Under the pieces are notes generated by a model. It ran no database searches. It was not told where the DNA came from and was given only the letters and a program-made list of their open reading frames with translations. A stretch of DNA of 23,243 nt from a virus. The stretch lies in IMG/VR virus record IMGVR_UViG_3300036845_000080, positions 1 to 23,243 of that record; one strand, written 5' to 3'. The position numbers and the translations under genes are program-made. Shown piece after piece: positions 1 to 11,206 of the stretch; position 1 is the first letter of the stretch, and each line of letters begins with the position of its first letter.

Positions 1-90
1 GAGGCTGGGCTGATGGTGTCCTCGGCGTCGGACGCGGGGCTATACAGCAGTGCGCCGCTGCGACCCAGCATTGCGGGGATGGAGGTATGA
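1..90 (+). CDS. C-terminal end of an unidentified upstream gene (partial)
   Basis: Frame 1 is open from the first base to a TGA at 88-90 and encodes 29 residues ending in GMEV. The stop overlaps the ATG of the next gene in an ATGA junction, the same kind of coupling used throughout this operon, so this is very likely the tail of a real gene. The fragment is too short to show a domain. In phages with this portal and capsid type the large terminase subunit usually lies just upstream of the portal, so terminase is the best positional guess, but nothing in these 29 residues proves it. Confidence 0.5.
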   Translation, partial: EAGLMVSSASDAGLYSSAPLRPSIAGMEV

Positions 91-92
91 CG
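79..92 (+). repeat. 14-base direct repeat, copy 1 (gene junction)
   Basis: The 14 bases atggaggtatgacg occur here and again at 381-394. In both copies the upstream gene reads through the repeat as Met-Glu-Val-stop, with the TGA at the same offset, so the repeat supplies the end of one gene and the GGAGG ribosome-binding sequence of the next. Confidence 0.8.
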
Positions 93-392
93 CGGTACAT
101 TCCAGACATGGACGAGAGGATGACACCTGCGGAGTACAAAGCCTCGAATGCGCGCCATGTTGCAGGGCTGGCCGCGCACCATCTACGGGAGATCTTCAAG
201 GAACTGGAGGAGCATCACGGTCCGTGGGCCGAGCTGATGCTACGGAATGTGCTTGCACGAATGGAGGATCTCCATCGCGTTGCATGGGACACCGATAACC
301 CCAAGGTGTTCTGCCCGCCGCCGAAACTGGAACCGCTTCTAATGATAGAAAGCTGCGACATAGAGCGCGCCATCGCCGAAATGGAGGTATGA
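87..392 (+). CDS. Hypothetical phage protein, 101 aa
   Basis: I do not recognise the family. The protein is predicted to be mostly helical, with alternating charged and hydrophobic residues at about 20-65 and a proline-rich stretch (CPPPKLEP) near 76-83. It ends in EMEV, almost the same last residues as the upstream partial gene. The ATG at 87 overlaps the upstream stop; the GGAGG at 81-85 is only one base away, so the upstream GGGG at 75-78 or an internal Met (codon 8 or 12, the latter beginning MTPAEYK) could be the true start. Its position between a probable terminase gene and the portal suggests a packaging or head role, which is inference. Confidence 0.6.
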   Translation: MTRYIPDMDERMTPAEYKASNARHVAGLAAHHLREIFKELEEHHGPWAELMLRNVLARMEDLHRVAWDTDNPKVFCPPPKLEPLLMIESCDIERAIAEMEV

Positions 393-394
393 CG
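381..394 (+). repeat. 14-base direct repeat, copy 2, containing the RBS for the GTG start at 394
   Basis: This is identical to 79-92. Here GGAGG (383-387) lies six bases before a GTG at 394, while the overlapping ATG at 389 opens only a six-codon frame. That decides in favour of the GTG start for the next gene. Confidence 0.75.
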
Positions 395-909
395 TGTCGG
401 GTTCGCTGATCCAGCAATACACGCAGCAGCCGCAGCAGCAGTCGGGCGGCTCACTGCTCATCCCGCAATACACCCAGCCGCAATCTGGCGGCCTCCTGAA
501 CATTAAGCCCGATCCGGGCTACTGGGGCGGCACGGGCGTGAACGCCCCGAAGCCAGCTGTGCAGCAGGCAGCCGCGCCATCCGCGGCACAGCAACAGCCG
601 GCGCAGCAATACGCGTCGCCGAACGCGCAGGCGCAGAGCACGCTGGACGACTACGCGAAGGCGCTGACCGGCACGGGGTATGGGCAGCTGGGCAATGGGC
701 CGATCGATCCCGGCGCGCTGCTGCTGCTTGGGCAGATCAACCCGCAGCTTGCGGCGCAGTACTACACCGGCCCTTACAGCCCGTTCGGTTACGGAGGCGG
801 TAGCGGCTATGGCTCGGGCGGCGGTTCCAGTGGTGGGAGTGCCGGCAACATGAGCGGCGCTGCGGCGGCCGCGCAGGGCGCTGACGTTATGAGCGGCGGG
901 ATCTACTGA
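394..909 (+). CDS. Gln/Gly-rich hypothetical protein, 171 aa
   Basis: The protein begins at GTG 394 with a well-placed GGAGG. The first 40 residues contain two or three imperfect repeats of a QYTQ-PQ-QSGG type, followed by an Ala/Gln-rich linker (about 50-80), a more ordered segment with an LLLLGQINPQLAAQYY core (about 107-125) and a Gly/Ser/Tyr-rich tail. Such low-complexity composition is common in phage structural or internal proteins, but no known domain is visible. Its stop overlaps the ATG of the small membrane protein by one base (TGATG), so it is co-translated with it. Function unknown. Confidence 0.6.
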   Translation: MSGSLIQQYTQQPQQQSGGSLLIPQYTQPQSGGLLNIKPDPGYWGGTGVNAPKPAVQQAAAPSAAQQQPAQQYASPNAQAQSTLDDYAKALTGTGYGQLGNGPIDPGALLLLGQINPQLAAQYYTGPYSPFGYGGGSGYGSGGGSSGGSAGNMSGAAAAAQGADVMSGGIY

Positions 910-1076
910 TGACGCTGCTCCTGATCATCCTGCTGGTGCTGTTGCTCGCGGGTGGTGGCGGCTACGGCTGGCGCTATGGCTACGCATATGGGCCGTACAG
1001 CGTGGTGTGGATACTGCTGATCGTGTTGCTGGTGCTGCTGGTGTTCGGTGGCCCACGGATAGGATGGTGGTCATGA
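909..1076 (+). CDS. Small two-helix membrane protein, 55 aa, DUF3309-like
   Basis: A 55-codon frame runs from ATG 909 (overlapping the previous stop as TGATG) to TGA 1074-1076, which overlaps the portal ATG as ATGA. The product has a Leu/Ile/Val-rich first helix (residues 2-14), a glycine- and tyrosine-rich turn containing GWRYGYAYGPY (20-30) and a second hydrophobic helix (32-47), ending in GWWS. This two-helix plan with a GWGYGP-like loop resembles bacterial DUF3309 mini-proteins, whose function is unknown. It would sit in the inner membrane or in the virion. A holin-like role is conceivable by size and topology but unsupported. Gapless coupling to both neighbours supports it as a real gene. 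Confidence 0.65.
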   Translation: MTLLLIILLVLLLAGGGGYGWRYGYAYGPYSVVWILLIVLLVLLVFGGPRIGWWS

Positions 1077-3886
1077 GCGGCACAGCCGGCAGCACAGCAG
1101 CGCCACCGCCGTTGCCGGGCGGACCCGTGCGTCCCGGCGGACCTGAAACCGGCGGCATCGGCGGTATGGGCGGCATGCAGGGCGGCGGGTTGCTGCAGCC
1201 CAGCGCGTGGCAGTCGCCTAACCCGCCGCCAGTGCCACGCATCCAAGGACTGATGCAGCCGGTTGGCCAGCCGCTCAGCGTCGAGCACATCTTCGCCAAC
1301 ATCACCAAGGCGCCGCCCGACACGATCCCGCACGACCCCGACGACGACATGCCGCCGCAGCTGCGTCCGTACGCGGCAGGGCTGCGACCATCCAACCGGC
1401 CGGTGTCGGCGCAATGGCAGCAGAGCTTCGTCTACGAAAAGCTGGGCAAGAGCGACAGCGAGATTGAGTCGATAGCGCAATACTACTTCAAGATGGCCGA
1501 GCGGTATGACGTGTATCTCGGGCGCGAGCGGATAACGGCAAGCCAGTACTACGCCGGCCGCCCGCTCGGCGACGAGGAACCGGGCCGCAGCCAGCTGGTG
1601 ATGACCACGGTGCGCGACACGATCCGCGCCACGCTGCCGAGCCTGCTGCGCGTGTTTACCGGCGTGGAAGATCCCGTGTCGTTCGAGCCGATGAGCGACG
1701 ACATTACCGGCGACGACAAGCTGGCAACCACACTGGCGCGCCAGGCCACGGACTACTGCCGGTGGGCGCTGTTCACCTGCAACCAAGGCTGGCAGGTGCT
1801 GCACGACGTGCTGCTCGATGCGCTGACACGCAAGGCAGGCTGGTGCCGCTGGTACTGGGGCAAACGTGAGACCACCCGCACCGAGGTGTGCGAGAACCTG
1901 CTGCTGCCGCAGTTGCAACTGCTGCTGGCCGAGCCCGGCATCGAGGCGCAGCGCATCGTGCGGCGACCGATCCAGCAATCGGAATTGCAGCTGCTGATGA
2001 AGGTGCCCGAGGTTGCGATGTATCTGCAGCAGGGCGGCGCGCCGGAATACTGGAGCGCCACGATCACACGGCATGCGGCGCAGAACTGGCCGGTGGTCGA
2101 GGCGGTGCCGAGCCAGTGCGTGTGGGTGGTGTCCGATGCCGACACTATCGATACCGCGAAGGGCATCTTCCACATCCGCGACGTGGTGGCGTCCGACCTG
2201 ATCGAGATGGGACTGCCGGAAGACAAGGTGCTGGCGCACACCGAGCACGCGATGAACCCGCGCATGCGCCGCGAGATCATCGCGCGCAACGAGGCGCAGG
2301 GGCACAATCTGCCGACCACGCCGCCGAACGATCGCAGCATGGCCTTGGTGCGGTATTGCGAGGGCTGGATCAGGTGCGACGCGGACAACGATCACCGCGC
2401 CGAGTTGCTGCACGTGCATATGCTGGGGAATGCAACTGAGCTGGTGCAGTGGGAACGGACGGACGAGACGCCGCTGGCGTGCTTCACGCCGTATCGCGAG
2501 CCGGGGCGGATCATCGGCTCGTCGCAGGCCGACATGGTGATGGACCTGCAACGCGTTGAGACGAGGGTGTTTCGCGCCGTGCTCGACAGCCTCGGGCAAT
2601 CGATGTTTCCGCGCACCAGCGTCGTGCTCGGGCAGGCGAACCTGCAGGACGTGCGGCAGACCGCGATCGGCGCGATTATCCGCGTGTCGCAGCAGGGCGC
2701 GGTGGCCGAGCTCACCAAGCCATTCATGGGCAAGGAAGCGCTGCCGATCCTCGAGGTGCTGGAGAGCATCCGCGAGAACCGCACCGGCATCACGCGGGCC
2801 AGCCAGGGGCTGTCGCTGGATCAGCTGCAGAGCACCACGCCGGTTGCGGTGAGCCAACAGACATCCGCGGCGCAGGACCGGCTCGACATGATGGCGCGGA
2901 CGCTGGCGGAGACCGGTTTGGCGCCACTCTACAGCGGCCTGCTCAAGATGATGGCGCGGCAGCAGGACCGGCCGAACGTCATCCGGCTGCGCGGCCAGTG
3001 GATCTCCATCGACCCGCGCGCCTTGGCGACGATGTGGCAGACCACGGTGAATGTCGGCGGCAAGGGCATGCCGATGGAACGGCTGGCGATGTTGCAGGGC
3101 ATTGCCCAGAAGCAGGAGATGCTGGTGCAGCAGGGCGGGCTGAACAACCCGCTGGCAGGCGTGCCGGAATACCGCAACACGCTGTCGCGCATGCTGGAGA
3201 CAGTCGGCATCGCGGACGTGTCGAGCTACTTCAAGCCGCTGCCTCCGGGCTGGCAGCCGCCACCACCACCGCAGCCACCGCCAGATCCCAGCATGGTGCT
3301 GGCCCAGGTGCAGGGCCAGAAGACCGCAGCCGACATCGAGGACCAGCGCGGTGAGGCGCAGACCAAGCGCGCGCAACTGCTCAGCGACGACGACCGCGAG
3401 CGCGCTCAGGCAGCGCTGCAATACTGGACGCAGGCGTATGCGGTGGCGGCGCAGCACGGCACGCCGCTGCCGGCGATCGGCGAGTTCCAGCAGGCGATGG
3501 CCTCCAAGGCGCCGGCGGTGGGACTGATGCCGCAGGGGCCGATGGCACCGCCGCCGCCGTCATCGCCACAACCCCCGGCGACGGCACAGGGCGCTGGCGG
3601 CCCTCCGAAGCCGCCTGGAGGCCCTCCGGGGGTTCCGCCGATGCAGGGACTGCCCGGCAAGCCGCAGGCGCCCATGATGCCCCAGGGGCCGCTGATACCG
3701 GGTGCCACGGCCGGGGTTGATCCGGCCAACCGCATGGCGGTGCAGCAGGGGCTGCAGGGTAGAGGATTACCGACGGCCTACGGGCAGATCGCGAATAGGG
3801 CTATGTCCAGCGCCTTGTTCGGGCCCGGTGGCCCGGCGATGCCCAAGCCTGGCGGGCAGGGCGTGGCTGGAGCACCAGGAGCGTAG
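1073..3886 (+). CDS. Portal protein (SU10/P22-like podovirus type), 937 aa
   Basis: This is the dodecameric ring at the capsid vertex through which DNA is packaged and ejected. The central part shows typical portal features: a VRDTIRATLPSLLRVF helix near residue 183, a FEPMSDDITGDDKLATT-type segment near 205, helical segments around 500-600, and a TVNVGGKGMPMERLAML segment near 659 that matches the VNVG-type motif of SU10/phiEco32-like and related podovirus portals. The N-terminal 70 residues and the C-terminal part (about 723-743 and 820-885) are rich in Pro and Gly and probably disordered. The frame is open upstream to 1007, but ATG 1073 overlaps the stop of the small membrane protein gene as ATGA and follows AGGA at 1061-1064, so I prefer it. 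The length of over 900 residues is large for a portal, mostly because of the low-complexity tail. Confidence 0.88.
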   Translation: MSGTAGSTAAPPPLPGGPVRPGGPETGGIGGMGGMQGGGLLQPSAWQSPNPPPVPRIQGLMQPVGQPLSVEHIFANITKAPPDTIPHDPDDDMPPQLRPYAAGLRPSNRPVSAQWQQSFVYEKLGKSDSEIESIAQYYFKMAERYDVYLGRERITASQYYAGRPLGDEEPGRSQLVMTTVRDTIRATLPSLLRVFTGVEDPVSFEPMSDDITGDDKLATTLARQATDYCRWALFTCNQGWQVLHDVLLDALTRKAGWCRWYWGKRETTRTEVCENLLLPQLQLLLAEPGIEAQRIVRRPIQQSELQLLMKVPEVAMYLQQGGAPEYWSATITRHAAQNWPVVEAVPSQCVWVVSDADTIDTAKGIFHIRDVVASDLIEMGLPEDKVLAHTEHAMNPRMRREIIARNEAQGHNLPTTPPNDRSMALVRYCEGWIRCDADNDHRAELLHVHMLGNATELVQWERTDETPLACFTPYREPGRIIGSSQADMVMDLQRVETRVFRAVLDSLGQSMFPRTSVVLGQANLQDVRQTAIGAIIRVSQQGAVAELTKPFMGKEALPILEVLESIRENRTGITRASQGLSLDQLQSTTPVAVSQQTSAAQDRLDMMARTLAETGLAPLYSGLLKMMARQQDRPNVIRLRGQWISIDPRALATMWQTTVNVGGKGMPMERLAMLQGIAQKQEMLVQQGGLNNPLAGVPEYRNTLSRMLETVGIADVSSYFKPLPPGWQPPPPPQPPPDPSMVLAQVQGQKTAADIEDQRGEAQTKRAQLLSDDDRERAQAALQYWTQAYAVAAQHGTPLPAIGEFQQAMASKAPAVGLMPQGPMAPPPPSSPQPPATAQGAGGPPKPPGGPPGVPPMQGLPGKPQAPMMPQGPLIPGATAGVDPANRMAVQQGLQGRGLPTAYGQIANRAMSSALFGPGGPAMPKPGGQGVAGAPGA

Positions 3887-3895
3887 GAGGGACAG

Positions 3896-4087
3896 ATGCC
3901 GGGTTTGTTGGATAAAGCGGTCAACCACATCAAAGGGCGCGGCGTCGCAACCAAGAGTGCATGGCCGATGGCGGTCGCGGCGCTGCAGAAGGCCGGTGAC
4001 CTCAAGAAAGGCACCGTGAAGGCGACCAAGCAAGGAACGGCGCGCAATGCAATGACCCGCGCGCAGCGACAGGCGAAACCACCGTGA
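3896..4087 (+). CDS. Small basic hypothetical protein, 63 aa
   Basis: An AGGAGGG sequence precedes the ATG by about six bases, a strong ribosome-binding site and one of the best in the operon. The product is rich in Lys and Arg, with little acidic residue content after position 35, and ends in an RAQRQAKPP tail. No domain is recognised. It may bind DNA or act as an unfolded head accessory; this is a guess from charge and from its position between portal and scaffold. Confidence 0.65.
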   Translation: MPGLLDKAVNHIKGRGVATKSAWPMAVAALQKAGDLKKGTVKATKQGTARNAMTRAQRQAKPP

Positions 4088-4102
4088 ACAGGGAGACGTG
4101 AC

Positions 4103-4279
4103 ATGGTAACCAAAGCATCGCGCTCGCAGAGCACCGGCGGCACGCGGCCGAGCGGCGGCCAGAACAAGCCACCGAGCGGAGGTCCAGCAGGCGCCGGCAA
4201 GGCGCGTGGCGCGGCCAATCTGAGCAGCACCGCCAAGACCACGCCGGGCGGCCGCGGGCCAGTCCCCAAGGCGAAGTAA
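4103..4279 (+). CDS. Tiny Gly/Ser/Lys-rich basic protein, 58 aa
   Basis: A 58-codon frame starts at ATG 4103, seven bases after GGGAG (4091-4095), and ends at TAA 4277-4279, which overlaps the next ATG as TAATG. The product is almost wholly low complexity (Gly, Ser, Pro, Thr, Lys, Arg) with roughly ten basic residues and no acidic ones, so it should be disordered and strongly positive. Together with the preceding gene it forms a pair of tiny basic proteins. Coupling to both neighbours is the main reason to call it a gene. Function unknown. Confidence 0.55.
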   Translation: MVTKASRSQSTGGTRPSGGQNKPPSGGPAGAGKARGAANLSSTAKTTPGGRGPVPKAK

Positions 4280-4533
4280 TGTCCGATCGTGAGGCCCGGT
4301 TCGCGGCTGCGGATGCCGCGCGATTGCGCGAAGACCCAGCGCTGGTGGCGATCCTGCGCGACCTGGAGACGCACGCGGTGAGCGTGTGCGTGACCGACTT
4401 CGACCCGGCCACTCGCGAGCGTGGGCGCTATCTGGCGCTGGCGATCCGCAGTCTGCGCCAGGAAATCCAGGACCGCATCGACAACGTGCTGGTGGCGGAA
4501 CACGCCCGACAACGAGCAATGGCATCCGAATGA
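4279..4533 (+). CDS. Small helical hypothetical phage protein, 84 aa
   Basis: The product is predicted to be almost all helix, with heptad-like segments at about 5-30 and 50-80 (YLALAIRSLRQEIQDRIDNV), and could form a coiled coil or helical hairpin. It begins in a TAATG overlap with the preceding gene and ends in an ATGA overlap with the following one. Small helical proteins of this kind are often found between portal and scaffold genes; I cannot assign a function. Confidence 0.65.
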   Translation: MSDREARFAAADAARLREDPALVAILRDLETHAVSVCVTDFDPATRERGRYLALAIRSLRQEIQDRIDNVLVAEHARQRAMASE

Positions 4534-4877
4534 GCGACATCATTGAGTTTACTCGGCAACTCAAGACCAAGCTCAGGGCGATGGGCGATAAGTTGCCTAT
4601 TGGCACGACGGTGCGCGTAATGGGCGCGGTAAATGCGAATATAGGTCCTACCACCACTGTGAAGGACCTGCTTGCTATGTCTGAGCAGGAATGGTTGCGG
4701 ACGCCCAATCTCGGCAAGATCAGCGCGGGGCATCTCATGAGCGTACTGCATCCGCCATTAAACATAGCAGAATACGCCGCAATCGCCGACCTAACCACCG
4801 AACGACTGATCGATGAGTTACAGCGGCGCGGATACGCCGTGCAACTCACTAGACCACCCAATGGACATGACCCATGA
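4530..4877 (+). CDS. Protein with RNA polymerase alpha C-terminal-domain-like helix-hairpin-helix, 115 aa
   Basis: Residues 28-77 look like the C-terminal domain of bacterial RpoA: TTVRVMGAVNANIG, then TVKDLLAMSEQEWLRTPNLG and KISAGHLMSVL. In E. coli alpha this is TVR...NI...IGDLV...LLKTPNLGKKS. The TPNLGK-S core is nearly identical, and the residues matching Arg265, Asn294, Gly296 and Ser299 are kept, while Lys298 is Ile and Glu302 is His. In RpoA these surfaces contact AT-rich promoter DNA and activators. The C-terminal part has an LTTERLIDELQRRGYAV helix. The frame is open upstream to 4386, but ATG 4530 overlaps the previous stop as ATGA. The gene uses more A/T-ending codons than its neighbours, which hints at separate acquisition. 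Whether it touches host polymerase or only DNA is unknown. Confidence 0.75.
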   Translation: MSDIIEFTRQLKTKLRAMGDKLPIGTTVRVMGAVNANIGPTTTVKDLLAMSEQEWLRTPNLGKISAGHLMSVLHPPLNIAEYAAIADLTTERLIDELQRRGYAVQLTRPPNGHDP

Positions 4878-5980
4878 GCGACTCAATCTCCACGCCGGCC
4901 AACACGCCGGCACCAGCCCCCGCCGTCATTCCAGGCGGCGGTGGCACTGACGCCGGCACAGCGCTGCCGCCGGCACGCGATCAACCAGGTCTGTCGATCA
5001 GCGAGGCCGGGCGGCTGCTCAACCAGCAGCGCCGCGCGGCACAGGGTGCGCCACAGCGCGCCGAGGCTCCAGCACGTGTCGAGGCACCCAACCGCGTGCA
5101 GGCACCGCCAGCGGCGCCCACAGAGGCGCCGGCGGCCACACCCGCGGCGGCACCCGCTGGAGACGCGGCGCTTGATACCATGGCAAAAGCATTGGGCCTG
5201 CCGGAAGGCATCGCACCGACGCTGCCTGGTCTGGAGACACCGCGCGATACGTCCGGCCCTACGATCGACATCGGCGACGGGCGTGTGCTCAACGCCGCCG
5301 AGGTGCGCCGCGCGATCGCCGCCGCCACCGACTACACCCAGAAGACCCAGGCACTGGCACGCGACCGGCAGGCACTCCAGCAGCAGCAGGAAGCGCTGGC
5401 CACCGTGCTGCCCTACATCCAGCCCGAACTCGCCCGCGTCCAGCAGCAACTCCAGGGCGTGCAGCGACCGGACCCCACGCTGATCGACACCAACCCACAG
5501 GAATACCTACGCCAGCGTGCCGCCTACGAAGCCGCGGCCGATGAGCAGGGCCGCATGGGCACGCTCACCCAACTCCAGCAGCAGGCGATGGAACGCGCGC
5601 TGTCGGAGCAGGTAAGCCGCAGCAACGAGGCGCTGGCCAAGGAGTTCCCCGACTGGGGCGACCCGCAGAAGCGCAGCGAGTGGCAGCAGCGCATCGCCAC
5701 CTGGGCAATGGATACGGGAGGCTTTCAGAAGCAGGAACTCGCGCGGCTGGCCGATCACCGCCAGCTGAAAGTCATGATGAAGGCGATGATGTTCGATGCG
5801 CTGAAGGAAGGCGCGGTGACGCGCGCACCGCAGCAGCAGCGGCCAGCCCGCGGCTCCGCGCCGCCGCCCGCACCAGCCGCCGCCGTCTCTAGCGCCGAGC
5901 AGGCGTTCCAGGCGAGGCCGAACATCAGGAACGCCGCCAACCTGCTAACCGCCCAGCGGGCCGCCGCCCAGCGCCGTTGA
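4874..5980 (+). CDS. Capsid scaffolding protein, 368 aa
   Basis: Scaffolding proteins direct procapsid assembly and are then removed. This one has the usual build: a disordered Pro/Ala-rich N-terminus (1-97), a short ordered segment (IDIGDGRVLNAAEVRRAI, about 133-150) leading into DYTQKTQALARDRQAL and a Gln-rich coiled coil (about 150-200), a helical region (203-313) and a Pro/Ala-rich end. The YTQKTQ-L pattern entering a long coiled coil is typical of podovirus scaffolds. It starts in an ATGA overlap and is followed, after a gap, by the capsid gene. The very high Gln content is notable. No protease gene is visible nearby, so release without cleavage, as in P22, is plausible but unproven. Confidence 0.82.
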   Translation: MSDSISTPANTPAPAPAVIPGGGGTDAGTALPPARDQPGLSISEAGRLLNQQRRAAQGAPQRAEAPARVEAPNRVQAPPAAPTEAPAATPAAAPAGDAALDTMAKALGLPEGIAPTLPGLETPRDTSGPTIDIGDGRVLNAAEVRRAIAAATDYTQKTQALARDRQALQQQQEALATVLPYIQPELARVQQQLQGVQRPDPTLIDTNPQEYLRQRAAYEAAADEQGRMGTLTQLQQQAMERALSEQVSRSNEALAKEFPDWGDPQKRSEWQQRIATWAMDTGGFQKQELARLADHRQLKVMMKAMMFDALKEGAVTRAPQQQRPARGSAPPPAPAAAVSSAEQAFQARPNIRNAANLLTAQRAAAQRR

Positions 5981-6267
5981 CGCGGCTTCGGCCGGAGTTG
6001 TAAGGCCACAACCGACACGCGGCGGAGTGCGCTGAGCGGGTCGCTGCTACCGCAAGCGGCAGACGGCCTGTCCTCCCGGTTCATGTCCCGTCGCGTGCCT
6101 CGTGCCGTCGCTGGCCTGATGTCGCCGGTCCTCAGACGCCTCGGAGTGGCAACGCCATGTCCCGAGTGACGGGCTGAACAGACCGACAGTCACTGACCAT
6201 TGCGAACCAATCCCATCGGTTCAACGCGCTGAAGCGCTCTGCGCTCGCGCCTGCAATGGAGTGACTT
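5981..6267 (+). other. 287-base non-coding gap before the capsid gene
   Basis: This is the only long stretch without a convincing gene in the + operon; every other junction is a few bases or an overlap. I see no good sigma-70 promoter, no hairpin followed by a T-run, and no frame with a plausible ribosome-binding site. It holds weak inverted repeats (for example GTTGT...ACAAC near 5998-6013 and the hairpin at 6204-6222) and the repeated word catgtcccg (about 6082 and 6151). It may be a leader or processing region that lets the capsid gene be expressed more strongly than its neighbours, or the remnant of a deleted gene. Confidence 0.5.
6204..6222 (+). promoter_or_regulatory. Short hairpin upstream of the capsid gene
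   Basis: GAACCAAT, a CCC loop and ATCGGTTC form eight-base arms with one A-C mismatch, about 45 bases before the capsid ATG. There is no U-rich tail, so it is not a standard terminator. It could stabilise the 5' end of a processed capsid mRNA. Chance occurrence cannot be excluded. Confidence 0.25.
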
Positions 6268-7248
6268 ATGGCTCTCGCCGCAATGGGCTCCGCGCCCGCT
6301 GGCACCTACATCGAAACCGGCGCCGTCGGTGTCCGAGAAGACCTCGCAAATATCATTTACCGTATCGATCCGGATGAAACACCGCTGGTATCAGCGTGTG
6401 CGAGGGTCGGAGCGTCACAGACGCTAACAGAGTGGTTAGTTCAGGAGTTGAATCCGGCTTATGATAACTTCCAGCCCGAAGGCTTCACTGCCGTAATGCA
6501 GGCGGTGCTCAAGCCGGTGCGGCTCAACAACGTCTGCCAGATCATCGCCCACACCGTCGGCGTGTCCAACACCCTGCGCGTGGTCGACGTGGCCGGCGGC
6601 GAGGATGAATACAACCGCCAGATGATCCTGCGCGGCATGGAGTGCAAGCGCGACCTCGAGCTCGCCATCACCGCCCCGACCATCAAGACCGTCACCGACC
6701 CGCGCCACATGAGCGGACTGCCGACCTACTGCATCAACGGTGCGCGCGGCGCCACCGGCACCATGCCAACCGGCGACGGCTCCAACGCCGGCACCGTCGG
6801 CACGCTCTACGATCTCACGCTGGGCGTCGTGCAGACCGCGATGCAGCAATGCTGGCAGGCCGGCGGCAAGCCCGACCTCGGCATCATGTCAGGCTCGGTG
6901 AAGCTGTACTTCGCCACCCTGTCGCAAGGCGGCACCAACAACGCCATCGTCGCGCAGAACATCGTCACCGCATCACCGCGCGACTCCATGACCATCCAGG
7001 GCGCGGTCGACGTGTTCCGCACCGACTTCGGCACCCTGCAACTCGCACCCGACCGGTTCTGCCCCGCCCATCAGATGCTGCTAGTATCGACAGACTATAT
7101 CGAGCTGGCTCCATTGCCGGAGCGCGACATGATACAGCAAGACTACGCACAAACTGGCGACAATAGTCAGGGCGGTGTAGTATTCGAAGGATGCCTTCGG
7201 CCCACGGCCCCGAAAAGCCACGCCTGGATCGCTGACCTCAACCAATGA
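6268..7248 (+). CDS. Major capsid protein (SU10 major head protein / DUF5309 family), 326 aa
   Basis: This is the shell-forming protein, expected to have the HK97 fold. The N-terminus shows the family signature: TYIETGAVGVREDLANIIY at about 13-31, followed by IDPDETPLVSACARVG. The C-terminal half keeps the conserved pattern of this family, including LAPDRFCPAHQMLLVSTDYI near 259-278 and LPERDMIQQDYAQTGDN near 283-299. Length fits the family. A GGAG lies a few bases before the ATG after the 287-base gap. Codon use is uneven: about 6330-6480 and 7080-7190 use more A/T-ending codons than the strongly GC-rich centre, which suggests a mosaic gene. The stop overlaps the next ATG as ATGA. Confidence 0.88.
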   Translation: MALAAMGSAPAGTYIETGAVGVREDLANIIYRIDPDETPLVSACARVGASQTLTEWLVQELNPAYDNFQPEGFTAVMQAVLKPVRLNNVCQIIAHTVGVSNTLRVVDVAGGEDEYNRQMILRGMECKRDLELAITAPTIKTVTDPRHMSGLPTYCINGARGATGTMPTGDGSNAGTVGTLYDLTLGVVQTAMQQCWQAGGKPDLGIMSGSVKLYFATLSQGGTNNAIVAQNIVTASPRDSMTIQGAVDVFRTDFGTLQLAPDRFCPAHQMLLVSTDYIELAPLPERDMIQQDYAQTGDNSQGGVVFEGCLRPTAPKSHAWIADLNQ

Positions 7249-7562
7249 CCGACAAGTCGCTATACGAGCGCTGGGATCCCGAAACCCAACGCTCGACCGA
7301 GGTGCTGGAGGACGCTGATACCGGCCTCCCGTACATCGTCAAGTCGCAGAACACCAAGCCGATCGTTGAGTCGGCGAAAGCCATCGCGAGCATCTACGAT
7401 CCGCATGTAAAGCGCGACATTACACACGTCGCGCGCATTCCCTACGTGATCTGGCAGCGGCTCCAGATGCTCGGCATCACCAAGGACGAGAAGGCGTTCA
7501 ACGCGTGGCTCGATAGCCGCGAAGCCCGCCTGTTCCGTACCGATAACGCGAGGAGACTGTAA
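7245..7562 (+). CDS. Conserved capsid-adjacent phage protein, 105 aa
   Basis: The product belongs, by pattern, to a small phage protein type found next to capsid genes: an N-terminal acidic stretch (ERWDPETQRSTEVLED), a central helix with KPIVESAKAIASIYDP, then VARIPYVIWQRLQMLGI and a C-terminal LDSREARLFRT segment. Related proteins often end in a DPDYRYLRT-like motif. Its role is not established; a head decoration or assembly role is inferred only from position. It overlaps the capsid stop (ATGA) and ends in a TAATG overlap with the next gene, so the three are probably translated together. Confidence 0.65.
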   Translation: MTDKSLYERWDPETQRSTEVLEDADTGLPYIVKSQNTKPIVESAKAIASIYDPHVKRDITHVARIPYVIWQRLQMLGITKDEKAFNAWLDSREARLFRTDNARRL

Positions 7563-7987
7563 TGCCATCAGCCACCGACACCACCGCACGCCCGCTCGCG
7601 CAGATGGCGCCCACACCAGGCGTCACGCCCGAGCACGAGGTGCCGATTTTCACCAAGCCCGTGCTGTTTCCCGACATTGATGTCGTGAAGCTGGTCCGAC
7701 TGTATGGCGCGGAAGCCACTGTGGAGGCGCTCAAGGCCGCTGCGATGGCCGCCGGTGAGGCGGCGCTCAAGGCCGCACCCGATGTGGTTGCCAGCCAGCA
7801 GGTGCCGGTGAGCGGACAGGAAGGCCAGCCACCGCCTTCGTCGCCCGGTGTGGCGCCGGCACCGCGGCCACCAGCCCCAGCGGCCGCAGCGCCCACACCA
7901 CCGTCGGCACCGCCCGGCACCCAGTGGACGCCCCAGCAAGTGGCCGCGTGGCAGGCACAGCAGGCAACCCGGCCGCCGGGCGCGTAG
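7562..7987 (+). CDS. Hypothetical Pro/Ala-rich head-region protein, 141 aa
   Basis: An AGGAG at 7551-7555 lies six bases before the ATG. Residues 26-78 could form a small ordered helical part (VVKLVRLYGAEATVEALKAA). The rest, 79-141, is a Pro/Ala linker ending in WTPQQVAAWQAQQ. Long Pro/Ala tails are frequent in capsid-associated and neck proteins. No domain is recognised. It is placed between the capsid-adjacent gene and the adaptor, so a structural role is likely but unproven. Confidence 0.55.
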   Translation: MPSATDTTARPLAQMAPTPGVTPEHEVPIFTKPVLFPDIDVVKLVRLYGAEATVEALKAAAMAAGEAALKAAPDVVASQQVPVSGQEGQPPPSSPGVAPAPRPPAPAAAAPTPPSAPPGTQWTPQQVAAWQAQQATRPPGA

Positions 7988-7993
7988 CCAGCC

Positions 7994-8680
7994 GTGGCCA
8001 GCCTGCAGCAGCTCCAGGATGACGTGCTCTCGTGGCTGAATCGCCGCGATTGCGTGGGGCTGCTGCCAGGCTGGACGTTGATGGTGGAAACCAAGATCAG
8101 CGAGACGCTGCGCGCGCGCTGCCAGGTGGTGTCCGCCATCCAGGCTATCGACGCGGCATACATCTCGCTGCCGTCCGACTTCGCGACCATGGAGTCTATG
8201 CGCGATGCCACGACAGGCGCACCGCTGGAATTGAAAGACCAGTGGAGCCCGAAGGGCGGCGGCTGGGCCTCGCCCTACACGGTATGGAGCGGCGTCTATC
8301 CGAGCACGTACTGGCAGATCAATCCGGCCGCGCCGTGCAGCGCGTATCGCCTCGTTGCCGACTGCATCGAGTTCCTGCCGCATCCGCTGATCCCTGATCC
8401 GCCAGATCCCGCGTGGGTGCCGCAGACCGTGCTGATGGGCTACTACCAGCGACCCAAGCCGCTGCTGCTGCCGGCTGACACCAACCCGATCCTCGAGAAC
8501 CTCTACGCCGTTTACCTATTCGGCCTGTGCAAGCTGGGCGCGATCTGGGGCCTCGACGACGACCGCGCCGCGCAGATGGACGCGCAGTGGCAGCAGGAGG
8601 TCACCCAGGCCAATCTTTGGAAGCAACAGAGCGATATGAGCGGTGATCCGCTGCGCGCCGAGCTCGCGGTGGTGTTCTAG
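7994..8680 (+). CDS. Head-tail adaptor (SU10 adaptor / T7 gp11-like), 228 aa
   Basis: This protein should bind under the portal and connect it to the tail nozzle. It shows the usual plan: an N-terminal helix (LQQLQDDVLSWLNRRD), a middle part with AIDAAYISLPSDFATMESM (about 52-70), and a C-terminal segment at about 148-205 with MGYYQRPKPLLLPADTNPIL followed by YAVYLFGLCKLGAIWGLDDD, matching the YY-RP-L and YLYGAL-A patterns of podovirus adaptors. The start is GTG 7994, six bases after the previous stop and with no clear ribosome-binding site, so it relies on coupling. Order before the fibres and nozzle agrees with the role. Confidence 0.8.
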   Translation: MASLQQLQDDVLSWLNRRDCVGLLPGWTLMVETKISETLRARCQVVSAIQAIDAAYISLPSDFATMESMRDATTGAPLELKDQWSPKGGGWASPYTVWSGVYPSTYWQINPAAPCSAYRLVADCIEFLPHPLIPDPPDPAWVPQTVLMGYYQRPKPLLLPADTNPILENLYAVYLFGLCKLGAIWGLDDDRAAQMDAQWQQEVTQANLWKQQSDMSGDPLRAELAVVF

Positions 8681-9241
8681 ATGCCCGCCGTTCTCACCAT
8701 CCCGTTCGATGCCTGGGTCGGCCTCGTGCCGGTCGGCAGCAGCGCCGAACTCGCGGGCAACGGATACGCCCGCCAGGCCGCCCACTTCGAGTATGCCGCC
8801 GATGGCGTGACCATCTGCAACGTCGCAGCCATCCAGTGGCAGGCAGCGAAGCCGCTGACCTGGGGCGCGATCGACCTGGTGGAGCTGTGGGACGCACCGA
8901 CCGGCGGCAGCGCCATCAGCAGCCTGCTGCCGACCAACGCCACGGTGCTGGTCAGCCAGTACGCCATCGCGCGCATTCCGCCGGCCGGCATCCAGGTGGT
9001 GCAGAAGCGGGCACCGCGTCCCTTCGGCACCGGCACCTTTGGCGTGGGCCGCTTCGGCACGTGGACCGCGGTCTATCCGATCGGCTCCGGCGTCGGCTCG
9101 CCGTATGGCGTCGGTGGCTACGGCGTGGGGCCGTATGAGACGCTATCCATCGGCGTGACGCTCGAGATCACATTCGACACCTCGCAGCACGTCTGCGAGC
9201 CGGGCATCTGGGCGCCCGGACCGTTCCAGAGGGCGGCATAG
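8681..9241 (+). CDS. Probable minor structural protein, 186 aa
   Basis: The first 105 residues have alternating hydrophobic and polar residues and a WGAIDLVELWDAPTGGSAIS segment of a type seen in phage head-tail or minor tail proteins. Residues 106-153 are rich in Gly, Tyr and Phe with short repeats (FGTGTFGVGRFG, YGVGGYGVGPY), followed by a beta-like C-terminus. Starting directly after the adaptor stop and ending directly at the fibre ATG, it is part of the tail cassette. No function can be assigned with certainty. Confidence 0.6.
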   Translation: MPAVLTIPFDAWVGLVPVGSSAELAGNGYARQAAHFEYAADGVTICNVAAIQWQAAKPLTWGAIDLVELWDAPTGGSAISSLLPTNATVLVSQYAIARIPPAGIQVVQKRAPRPFGTGTFGVGRFGTWTAVYPIGSGVGSPYGVGGYGVGPYETLSIGVTLEITFDTSQHVCEPGIWAPGPFQRAA

Positions 9242-11206
9242 ATGAGCGGCAGTGATTATACGACCACGCCCAACCTGAACCTCTACAAGCCGATATTTAA
9301 TGCGGATGTCGGGAATTGGGGCGCGCATTGGAACAGCAACGCCGACACGCTGGACAGCGCGCTGGGAACAGGCGCTGGCGGGATGTTCCTGCCGCTGGCC
9401 GGCGGCACGCTCACCGGGGCGCTGACCGTCGGCGGCCAGACCGCCTATGGCAAGGTCGAGGTCACGCCATACAACCAATACACCGCGATGGCAGGCGGCA
9501 CGCAGACCGAGTCTGATATAGCGATTGCCACTGACGGTGGCACCGGTGTTTTCACTAATATCCGCATGCAATCCAACACATATACGGCGCCCGAGACGCA
9601 TATCTGGGGATTCTTGAGCACGGTGAACTTTGCCGGCACCGGCGGCCATGGTTCGCATGTCGGTATCTATGGGCAGGGCTTCAGATCCAATGCTATTACC
9701 AATCCGACGACGACGGTTGCCACGACGGTAAGCGGCACCACCAATACCGTCGCGATCGCGGATGTGACCAACTTCCAATTTGACGGTCAGCCGATTACCA
9801 TTCACGGCACCCCATACACGCAGGTTTCGCACACCGGGACCTCCGGGTCCGGCACCATCTCGACCCTGTATAACATCGCGGTGGCTGACGGAACCGCCGG
9901 CAACACCGTGACCGCGAACAACAATCCGTCGGTCTGGGCTGGATGTTTTGAAACCCGCGACCTGACGGGACAGCCGAGCGCCAATACCAGCTACGCCTTG
10001 AGCGTGGAATTTGATCTGGCCTGCAACGGCGCCGACAACGGTGGTTATATGCAGTGGGGGTCGCCGATCGGTGTGCGGCAGATCCTGTCGTTGAATGGTT
10101 GGACCCAGGGCACCGGCACGCCAGGAGAGATCGGCACCGCAATCACGATTTACGGCGATGCCAATACCACGTTTAAGACCGGCATCCGGTTTGTCTCGGC
10201 CTTCAATCAGGCCGGCGTTGATTTCCGCATGGCTGTGCAAGGAGCTTCGGCCAATGCGATCTGGTTGAAGGCTGGGCAATACGTTGCGTTTGACAACGCG
10301 GGGACTAATGGCGCGGCGGCTAATGTGAGGCTGTCGGGCGACGGGACCAGCCTCAACATCGCGGGGCCGGTCGTGGCAACCAGCACGATCACGGTGGGCA
10401 CCAGCACCGGAGCCACCTCTGCCGTCCTGCTCGATAGCGCCGCTGGCAACAATCGCACGCTGTGGTTCCAGACCGCCGGACTGTCGCGCTGGTACCTCTA
10501 TGCCAGCAGCACGGCTGAAGGCGGCAGCAATGCCGGCTCCGATTTCATCGTTCAGAATTGCAACGATGCCGGCACCGTGCTTGGGACGCCATTGCAGATC
10601 AACCGTGCTACCGGGCTGGTGACGATCGGGAGTGGCAATCTGCAAGTGAATGGCGGCGCGACGGTCGGGACCAACACAGCCGCAGCGACGTTGCTGTTAA
10701 ATGGTCCTGCCGCATCGAACCGCACGATATATTTCGAGACCGCCGGCAGCGCTCGCTGGATGATGTTTGCCAACAACACTGCCGAGGGCGGCTCCAACGC
10801 GGGGTCGGATTTCCAGATCAATGCCGTCAGCGACGCCGGCGGCTTTCTTGCTACGCCGCTCCAGATCACCCGCGCTACCGGGCTTGTGACGCTGAATAAC
10901 GGCCTGTCGTTCGGCTCTGCCGTGGCACCCGGCGGCGTCACCGATGTTTCCAGGCATCTCGCACTCTATGGCAACAACAACGGCATGAACATCACGGCTG
11001 GCTTCATGAACCTGGTGGCCTCTGGGACAGCTATTCTGCAACTGTCGGGCACTGGCGCGACCATCAACGGCAATGTCGGCTTCCACAGCACCCCGGCAAT
11101 CGCCAAGCCGACCGTGACCGGCGCCAAGGGCGGCAACACCGCGCTCGCGTCGTTCCTCACGGCCATGGCCGCGTACGGCCTCATCACTGATTCGAGCACA
11201 GCATGA
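9242..11206 (+). CDS. Tail fibre / spike protein 1, 654 aa
   Basis: Receptor-binding fibre, probably trimeric. Residues 1-40 form a short anchor with TTTPNLNLYKPIFNADVGNW and NADTLD, shared with the two other fibre genes. A FLPLAGGTLTGALTV segment (about 50-64), a frequent fibre motif, follows. The centre is Gly/Thr/Asn/Ala-rich, beta-type sequence. Two tandem copies of an about 85-residue unit occur at about 380-465 and 471-557 (each with RTLWFQTAG or RTIYFETAG, AEGGSNAGSDF and ATGLVT). The C-terminus has KPTVTGAKGGNTALASFLTA and YGLITDSSTA, shared with fibre 2. No enzymatic motif is seen, so glycan depolymerase activity is neither shown nor excluded. Confidence 0.82.
   Translation: MSGSDYTTTPNLNLYKPIFNADVGNWGAHWNSNADTLDSALGTGAGGMFLPLAGGTLTGALTVGGQTAYGKVEVTPYNQYTAMAGGTQTESDIAIATDGGTGVFTNIRMQSNTYTAPETHIWGFLSTVNFAGTGGHGSHVGIYGQGFRSNAITNPTTTVATTVSGTTNTVAIADVTNFQFDGQPITIHGTPYTQVSHTGTSGSGTISTLYNIAVADGTAGNTVTANNNPSVWAGCFETRDLTGQPSANTSYALSVEFDLACNGADNGGYMQWGSPIGVRQILSLNGWTQGTGTPGEIGTAITIYGDANTTFKTGIRFVSAFNQAGVDFRMAVQGASANAIWLKAGQYVAFDNAGTNGAAANVRLSGDGTSLNIAGPVVATSTITVGTSTGATSAVLLDSAAGNNRTLWFQTAGLSRWYLYASSTAEGGSNAGSDFIVQNCNDAGTVLGTPLQINRATGLVTIGSGNLQVNGGATVGTNTAAATLLLNGPAASNRTIYFETAGSARWMMFANNTAEGGSNAGSDFQINAVSDAGGFLATPLQITRATGLVTLNNGLSFGSAVAPGGVTDVSRHLALYGNNNGMNITAGFMNLVASGTAILQLSGTGATINGNVGFHSTPAIAKPTVTGAKGGNTALASFLTAMAAYGLITDSSTA
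11103..11130 (+). repeat. 28-base repeat at the fibre 3' end, copy 1
   Basis: These 28 bases are identical to 13067-13094 in the paralogous fibre gene and encode the KPTVTGAKG segment. Shorter identities occur at the 5' ends (for example 18-base words encoding ANADTLD and GGTLTG). Such flanking identity could support homologous exchange between the two genes. Confidence 0.85.

Follow-up and report, generated by a model that had tools for sequence, protein, structure and literature searches.

The window analysed here is a virus record of 23,243 bases that encodes a portal protein and a major capsid protein of the SU10 type and a scaffold of known type. Among these head genes lies an open reading frame for a 115-residue protein, P0001, part of which resembles the C-terminal domain of the RNA polymerase alpha subunit (alpha-CTD). 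The original prediction proposed that P0001, as a free alpha-CTD, could mimic host alpha, bind DNA at UP elements, contact activators or work at late promoters. The locus raises the question of whether the reading frame is a gene, whether the resemblance reflects a relationship to RpoA, and what a detached domain of this kind could do for a phage.

Coding status and surroundings of the P0001 gene

The reading frame at 4530–4877 is a real gene. Its start codon overlaps the stop codon of the preceding 84-residue gene, and its stop codon overlaps the start of the scaffold gene, in both cases as ATGA (4530–4533 and 4874–4877). The codon usage of the window favours this frame over the other five, although most neighbours fit better. 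The gene has a GC content of 0.546 and a GC3 of 0.621, lowest among the 22 window genes tallied (GC3 of the others, 0.67–0.89). The 115-residue product, the location between the portal (PF23899) and scaffold (phrog_3927) genes and the larger share of A/T-ending codons had all been read from the sequence originally and are borne out. The surrounding features are listed in Table 1.

Table 1 Position of the P0001 gene, its parts and the neighbouring head genes in the window
Feature	Position	Strand	Evidence
Portal protein, SU10 type	1007–3886	+	PF23899 SU10_portal, E 8.9e-147
Conserved 84-aa gene, precedes slot	4279–4533	+	phrog_12935, E 1.3e-4; before scaffold across relatives
Accessory (slot) gene, P0001 (115 aa), alpha-CTD-like core	4530–4877	+	ATGA overlaps; codon usage; L088 homologue in same place
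Fast-diverging N-terminal part, codons 1–41, where alpha helix 1 would lie	4530–4652	+	Low identity to P0002; outside profile matches
Alpha-CTD-like core, codons 42–74, TTVKDLLAMSEQEWLRTPNLGKISAGHLMSVLH, equivalent to alpha ~276–308	4653–4751	+	PF03118; local HMM; two-member profile
Conserved C-terminal motif, codons 88–113, LTTERLIDELQRRGYAVQLTRPPNGH	4791–4868	+	Most conserved part between P0001 and P0002
Head scaffolding protein, follows slot	4874–5980	+	phrog_3927, E 1.3e-25
Major capsid protein, SU10 type	6268–7248	+	PF17236, E 1e-63

Further downstream, between 9242 and 14733, the reading frames at 9242, 11203 and 13747 open with sequences that are similar by eye (MSGSDYTTTPNLNLYKP, MSGSDWTQTPNLKLYKP and MSGTTTPNFGLSLP). 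Their likeness hints that a tail-fibre-type gene was duplicated more than once.

A single, unevenly diverged homologue

With its own sequence as the query, P0001 had no relative among phages, viral contigs, genome contigs or plasmids. The only homologue, P0002, was found by synteny, through a comparison of portal and capsid gene neighbourhoods, in the related record L088. Scans with the two-member profile, with P0002 and with the C-terminal peptide retrieved no further members, and in 50 related records a P0001-type gene is present in the window and L088 only. A third match in these records (L206) holds a stop codon and lies off the long reading frames of its locus, and was taken as chance. 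A match in an Azotobacter plasmid (E 0.6) falls where no gene is annotated.

The portal proteins of the window and L088 are 95% identical and the 84-residue proteins 83%, against 44% (44–45%) for the slot proteins, which reflects either fast evolution or separate acquisition by the two phages. The divergence is uneven: the core and the C-terminal part are each 58% identical, the N-terminal part 19%. The dN/dS ratio is below 1 in the core and the C-terminal part, an estimate from one pair with synonymous sites near saturation. No family matches the C-terminal motif of P0001 below E 0.02, and among viral contigs the exact string DELQRRGYAV occurs in the contig of the homologue only.

Relationship of the core to the alpha-CTD

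The sole credible Pfam family for P0001 is RNA_pol_A_CTD (PF03118; E 0.0013, 18.9 bits), and the same family ranks first for P0002 (E 0.058; core alone, E 0.010). The gathering score of PF03118, 23.8 bits, is missed by both P0001 and P0002 (13.6 bits), as it is by their cores alone (20.4 and 16.0 bits); by Pfam's own rule P0001 is not a member of the family. The core had originally been called very close to the RpoA domain. The WLRTPNLGKIS segment on which this was based is present, but the score shows the wording to be too strong. In the genome of L010, a weak PF03118 match runs antisense to a longer reading frame of methyltransferase-like type; it was considered chance.

Other searches point in the same direction. 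The top three NCBIfam models for P0001 are all rpoA, covering the C-terminal domain only. A single-sequence search of the PDB matched RpoA alone (E 0.3). When a profile of P0001 and P0002 was run against 177,635 PDB sequences, the top 21 matches were all RpoA chains (best E 0.021); unrelated chains start at E 1.3. The profile-profile score of the two members against 14 alpha-CTDs is 38.3, compared with at most 20.2 in 200 trials with shuffled columns. With a local alpha-CTD HMM P0001 scores 20.3 bits and P0002 12.4 bits, the maxima in 1000 shuffles of each sequence being 3.9 and 7.3. In the phage collection, several records with RpoA matches contain a complete or partial host rpoA gene and appear to be bacterial contigs deposited as phage (for example AFYI01000003, CAKLQH020000003 and OR851339); these were used only as examples of the alpha-CTD.

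The profile and shuffle results indicate a remote relation to the alpha-CTD, one that exceeds chance and singles out this domain among the helix-hairpin-helix families. In a hand-counted alignment, 14 of the 32 residues at positions 42–73 of P0001 are identical to E. coli alpha, with the shared pattern D-L-x(4)-E-x-E-x-L-x-x-P-N-L-G-K-x-S across alpha ~276–308. P0001 differs from E. coli RpoA in that helix 1 is unrecovered, Lys298 and Glu302 are changed, an extra conserved C-terminal motif is present and the family score stays below gathering. The N-terminal dimerisation domain of RpoA is absent from the 115-residue protein, and no further alpha domain was found in it. An AlphaFold2 model from the two sequences is unusable (pLDDT 49, pTM 0.33), with a helix order compatible with the alpha-CTD. 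As judged from sequence comparison, the core is probably related to the second half of the alpha-CTD, through a remote and weak match.

Such a relationship would leave room for a protein with no present link to RNA polymerase, its likeness to the alpha-CTD stemming from ancestry or from a hairpin in common. A generic small helix-hairpin-helix protein that binds nucleic acid and has an accessory role, for instance in anti-defence, is the main rival to the protein-contact mechanism discussed below, and we regard it as possible, if doubtful. It agrees with the mainly hairpin (LGK.S) and helix positions that are kept, and with the weak plasmid match of P0002, which is the DNA ligase LigB (E 0.3). 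Optional phage genes also often serve defence and counter-defence. Against it, a scan of all Pfam helix-hairpin-helix families gave no other credible family for P0001 or P0002, and no hairpin protein other than RpoA is among the PDB matches of the two-member profile; on this point, the placement of the core by profile search, the original prediction stands. In addition, binding to the DNA backbone is disfavoured by the Glu residues at two contact positions of the P0002 hairpin.

Alternatively, P0001 could be a small helical protein unrelated to the alpha-CTD that resembles it by chance, as the Pfam score below gathering, the E value of the single-sequence PDB search and the lack of a confident structure might suggest. 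This is unlikely, since PF03118 is the best family for two proteins that are only 44–45% identical, and the profile and shuffle tests lead to the same result, even if the tests on the two proteins are not fully independent, their core being common by descent.

Erosion of the DNA-contact residues

The profile alignments of P0001 begin near residue 42, which corresponds to alpha 276, and never reach helix 1 with Arg265 and Asn268. An ungapped placement puts Met31 of P0001 at alpha 265; Arg29 takes this position only if two residues are inserted. Neither placement retains Asn268. In P0002 an ungapped placement, read by hand, puts Arg29 at alpha 265 and replaces Asn268 by Val. The hairpin of P0001, NLGKIS, follows the N-L-G-K/R-K-S hairpin of PF03118 with its Gly and Ser. 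Asn294, Gly296 and Ser299 are unchanged in it, while Lys298 is replaced by Ile and Glu302 by His; the equivalent of Lys291 is Arg. In P0002 the hairpin reads ELGKES by hand, with Gly296 and Ser299 kept and Glu at both 294 and 298. Of the contact residues named originally, Asn294, Gly296 and Ser299 are indeed kept and Lys298 and Glu302 changed, but Arg265, also listed as kept, lies where no alignment extends. As far as these alignments go, the DNA-contact set is eroded in the family: it is incomplete in P0001 and more so in P0002.

Other phages encode an alpha-CTD-like domain without the full alpha subunit: c00050 of the Bacillus phage Goe8 (annotated as RNA polymerase subunit alpha), gp23 of Ruegeria phage V16 and gp26 of Microbacterium phage Mazun. 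Unlike P0001, these proteins retain counterparts of all three of Arg265, Asn268 and Asn294, and none of them is encoded in the head-gene slot described here. The search with the P0001 sequence matched none of the three. A search of the literature collection used here turned up no paper on free alpha-CTD-like proteins encoded by phages.

These features bear on the model drawn from the original prediction, in which a free alpha-CTD binds UP-element DNA and helps to bring the host RNA polymerase to the late promoters of the phage. The hairpin residues that are kept in the window, including the Arg at 291, would be compatible with it, as would the probable use of host RNA polymerase by this phage group. 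However, the match covers half a domain, Arg265 is unrecovered, Asn268 and Lys298 are lost, and in P0002 Asn294 is changed to Glu as well. There is no N-terminal domain of alpha that could tether the protein to the polymerase, and relatives whose head genes are 94–96% identical manage without the gene. A search for sigma-70-like sites, the one promoter type covered, found none on the strand of the gene within positions 1–9300. UP-element binding by P0001 thus appears poorly supported by its sequence, and we consider the model improbable.

An optional slot before the scaffold gene

The junction between the 84-residue gene and the scaffold gene is readable in 16 relatives. The slot is empty in 11 of them (L002, L004, L007, L008, L087, L092, L093, L095, L096, L097 and L176) and contains other reading frames in four: an unrelated 63-residue frame in L082, an unrelated 57-residue frame in L094, and frames that begin but are cut off by the contig end in L085 and L091. 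A search for the same gene at the same place, suggested originally, therefore finds it in L088 and finds it missing from the other 15 junctions. The closeness of some relatives is illustrated by L004, with portal, capsid and scaffold proteins 96%, 94% and 90% identical to those of the window and an empty slot.

A slot that varies among relatives and a product that diverges fit an accessory gene and argue against a core role in head assembly. The P0001 gene is, with high confidence, an optional accessory gene in a variable slot of an SU10/phiM5-type phage. It shares two marks of moron-type genes, a base composition unlike that of its neighbours and optional presence among close relatives between conserved flanks. 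A promoter and terminator of its own, another such mark, are not apparent: the gene overlaps both neighbours, and a search covering sigma-70-like promoters gave no consensus site close by on the same strand. No flanking repeats that would mark an insertion were found around it. The original prediction placed the gene inside the head-assembly operon; since nearly all close relatives lack the gene, a link to head assembly is contradicted. Accordingly, a minor scaffold or capsid partner encoded beside the scaffold gene, as the position and the ATGA coupling to that gene could suggest, is very unlikely, given the 15 junctions without it, L004 among them.

Other genes were observed in the interval between portal and scaffold. 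In L088, a 100-residue reading frame directly after the portal gene (7814–8116, + strand) is Cys-rich by eye (CDCG...SCGC), of a homing-endonuclease-associated kind, with a sub-threshold match to DUF6315 (E 0.0067). L082, with a portal 96% identical to that of the window, has a 255-residue frame (8134–8901, + strand) that is tail-fibre-like by eye. In more distant relatives, including L070 (4995–5660), L057 (2113–2775) and L067 (4998–5660), a protein of ~220 residues resembling SAM-dependent methyltransferases (VVDMGSGVGE, by eye) is encoded just before the 84-residue-type gene.

Transcription setting and possible role

The window, the records of 18 relatives (17 of them 31 to 43 kb) and phiM5 gave no match to a T7-type RNA polymerase, while the T7 control was positive. 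The absence of such an enzyme from these phages suggests that host RNA polymerase is probably used, and a transcription-directed factor is plausible in them. One relative, L128, with a portal 66% identical to that of the window, encodes a 218-residue protein with sigma-70 region 4 (7126–7782, + strand; PF04545, E 4.3e-11, above the cut-off) between the portal and the 84-residue-type gene. Like P0001, this protein is optional, encoded in the portal–scaffold interval and derived from a promoter-recognition domain. It differs in its unrelated domain, its size, its clear family membership and its place before rather than after the 84-residue-type gene. The PF04545 cut-off is passed in L128 only among 21 records. 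Because this is a single case and phages commonly encode sigma-4-like helix-turn-helix proteins, we treat it as a lead only.

Within the core, the segment SEQEW, equivalent to alpha 285–289, is identical in P0001 and P0002, while the equivalents of Asn294, Lys298 and Glu302 differ between them. In E. coli, alpha 285–289 is part of the surface touched by activators such as CRP. Its conservation may equally reflect the needs of folding.

Overall, the locus is tentatively best explained as an accessory gene for a host-directed factor that would act by protein contact through its alpha-CTD-like core. P0001 would be made with the late genes. Its core would have given up most DNA-contact residues and retained SEQEW, a segment of the surface touched by activators, so that the protein could serve as a decoy or adaptor for the partners of the host alpha-CTD, by protein contact and not by UP-element binding. 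This putative mechanism, taken by itself, is possible but open to real doubt. We count in favour of this explanation the alpha-CTD relation of the core, the optional slot with its divergent product, the invariant SEQEW, the failure to find a T7-type polymerase and the L128 sigma-4 gene in the same interval; against it count the two-member family, the score below gathering and the unusable structural model. The late-operon position also counts against it, as such a gene comes late for host takeover. A broader reading, which we judge unlikely, is that the portal–scaffold interval collects detached pieces of host promoter recognition (alpha-like in the window and L088, sigma-like in L128). Late in infection, these proteins would act as mimics that redirect or block the host RNA polymerase, the alpha-like one having given up its DNA-contact surface.

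If P0001 makes no contact with host RNA polymerase or activators, its gene is a further example of the small, optional phage genes that encode a hairpin domain. If it does, it would be a phage-made alpha-CTD decoy without DNA binding, and the portal–scaffold interval of SU10/phiM5-type phages would be a place to seek transcription-directed accessory genes.
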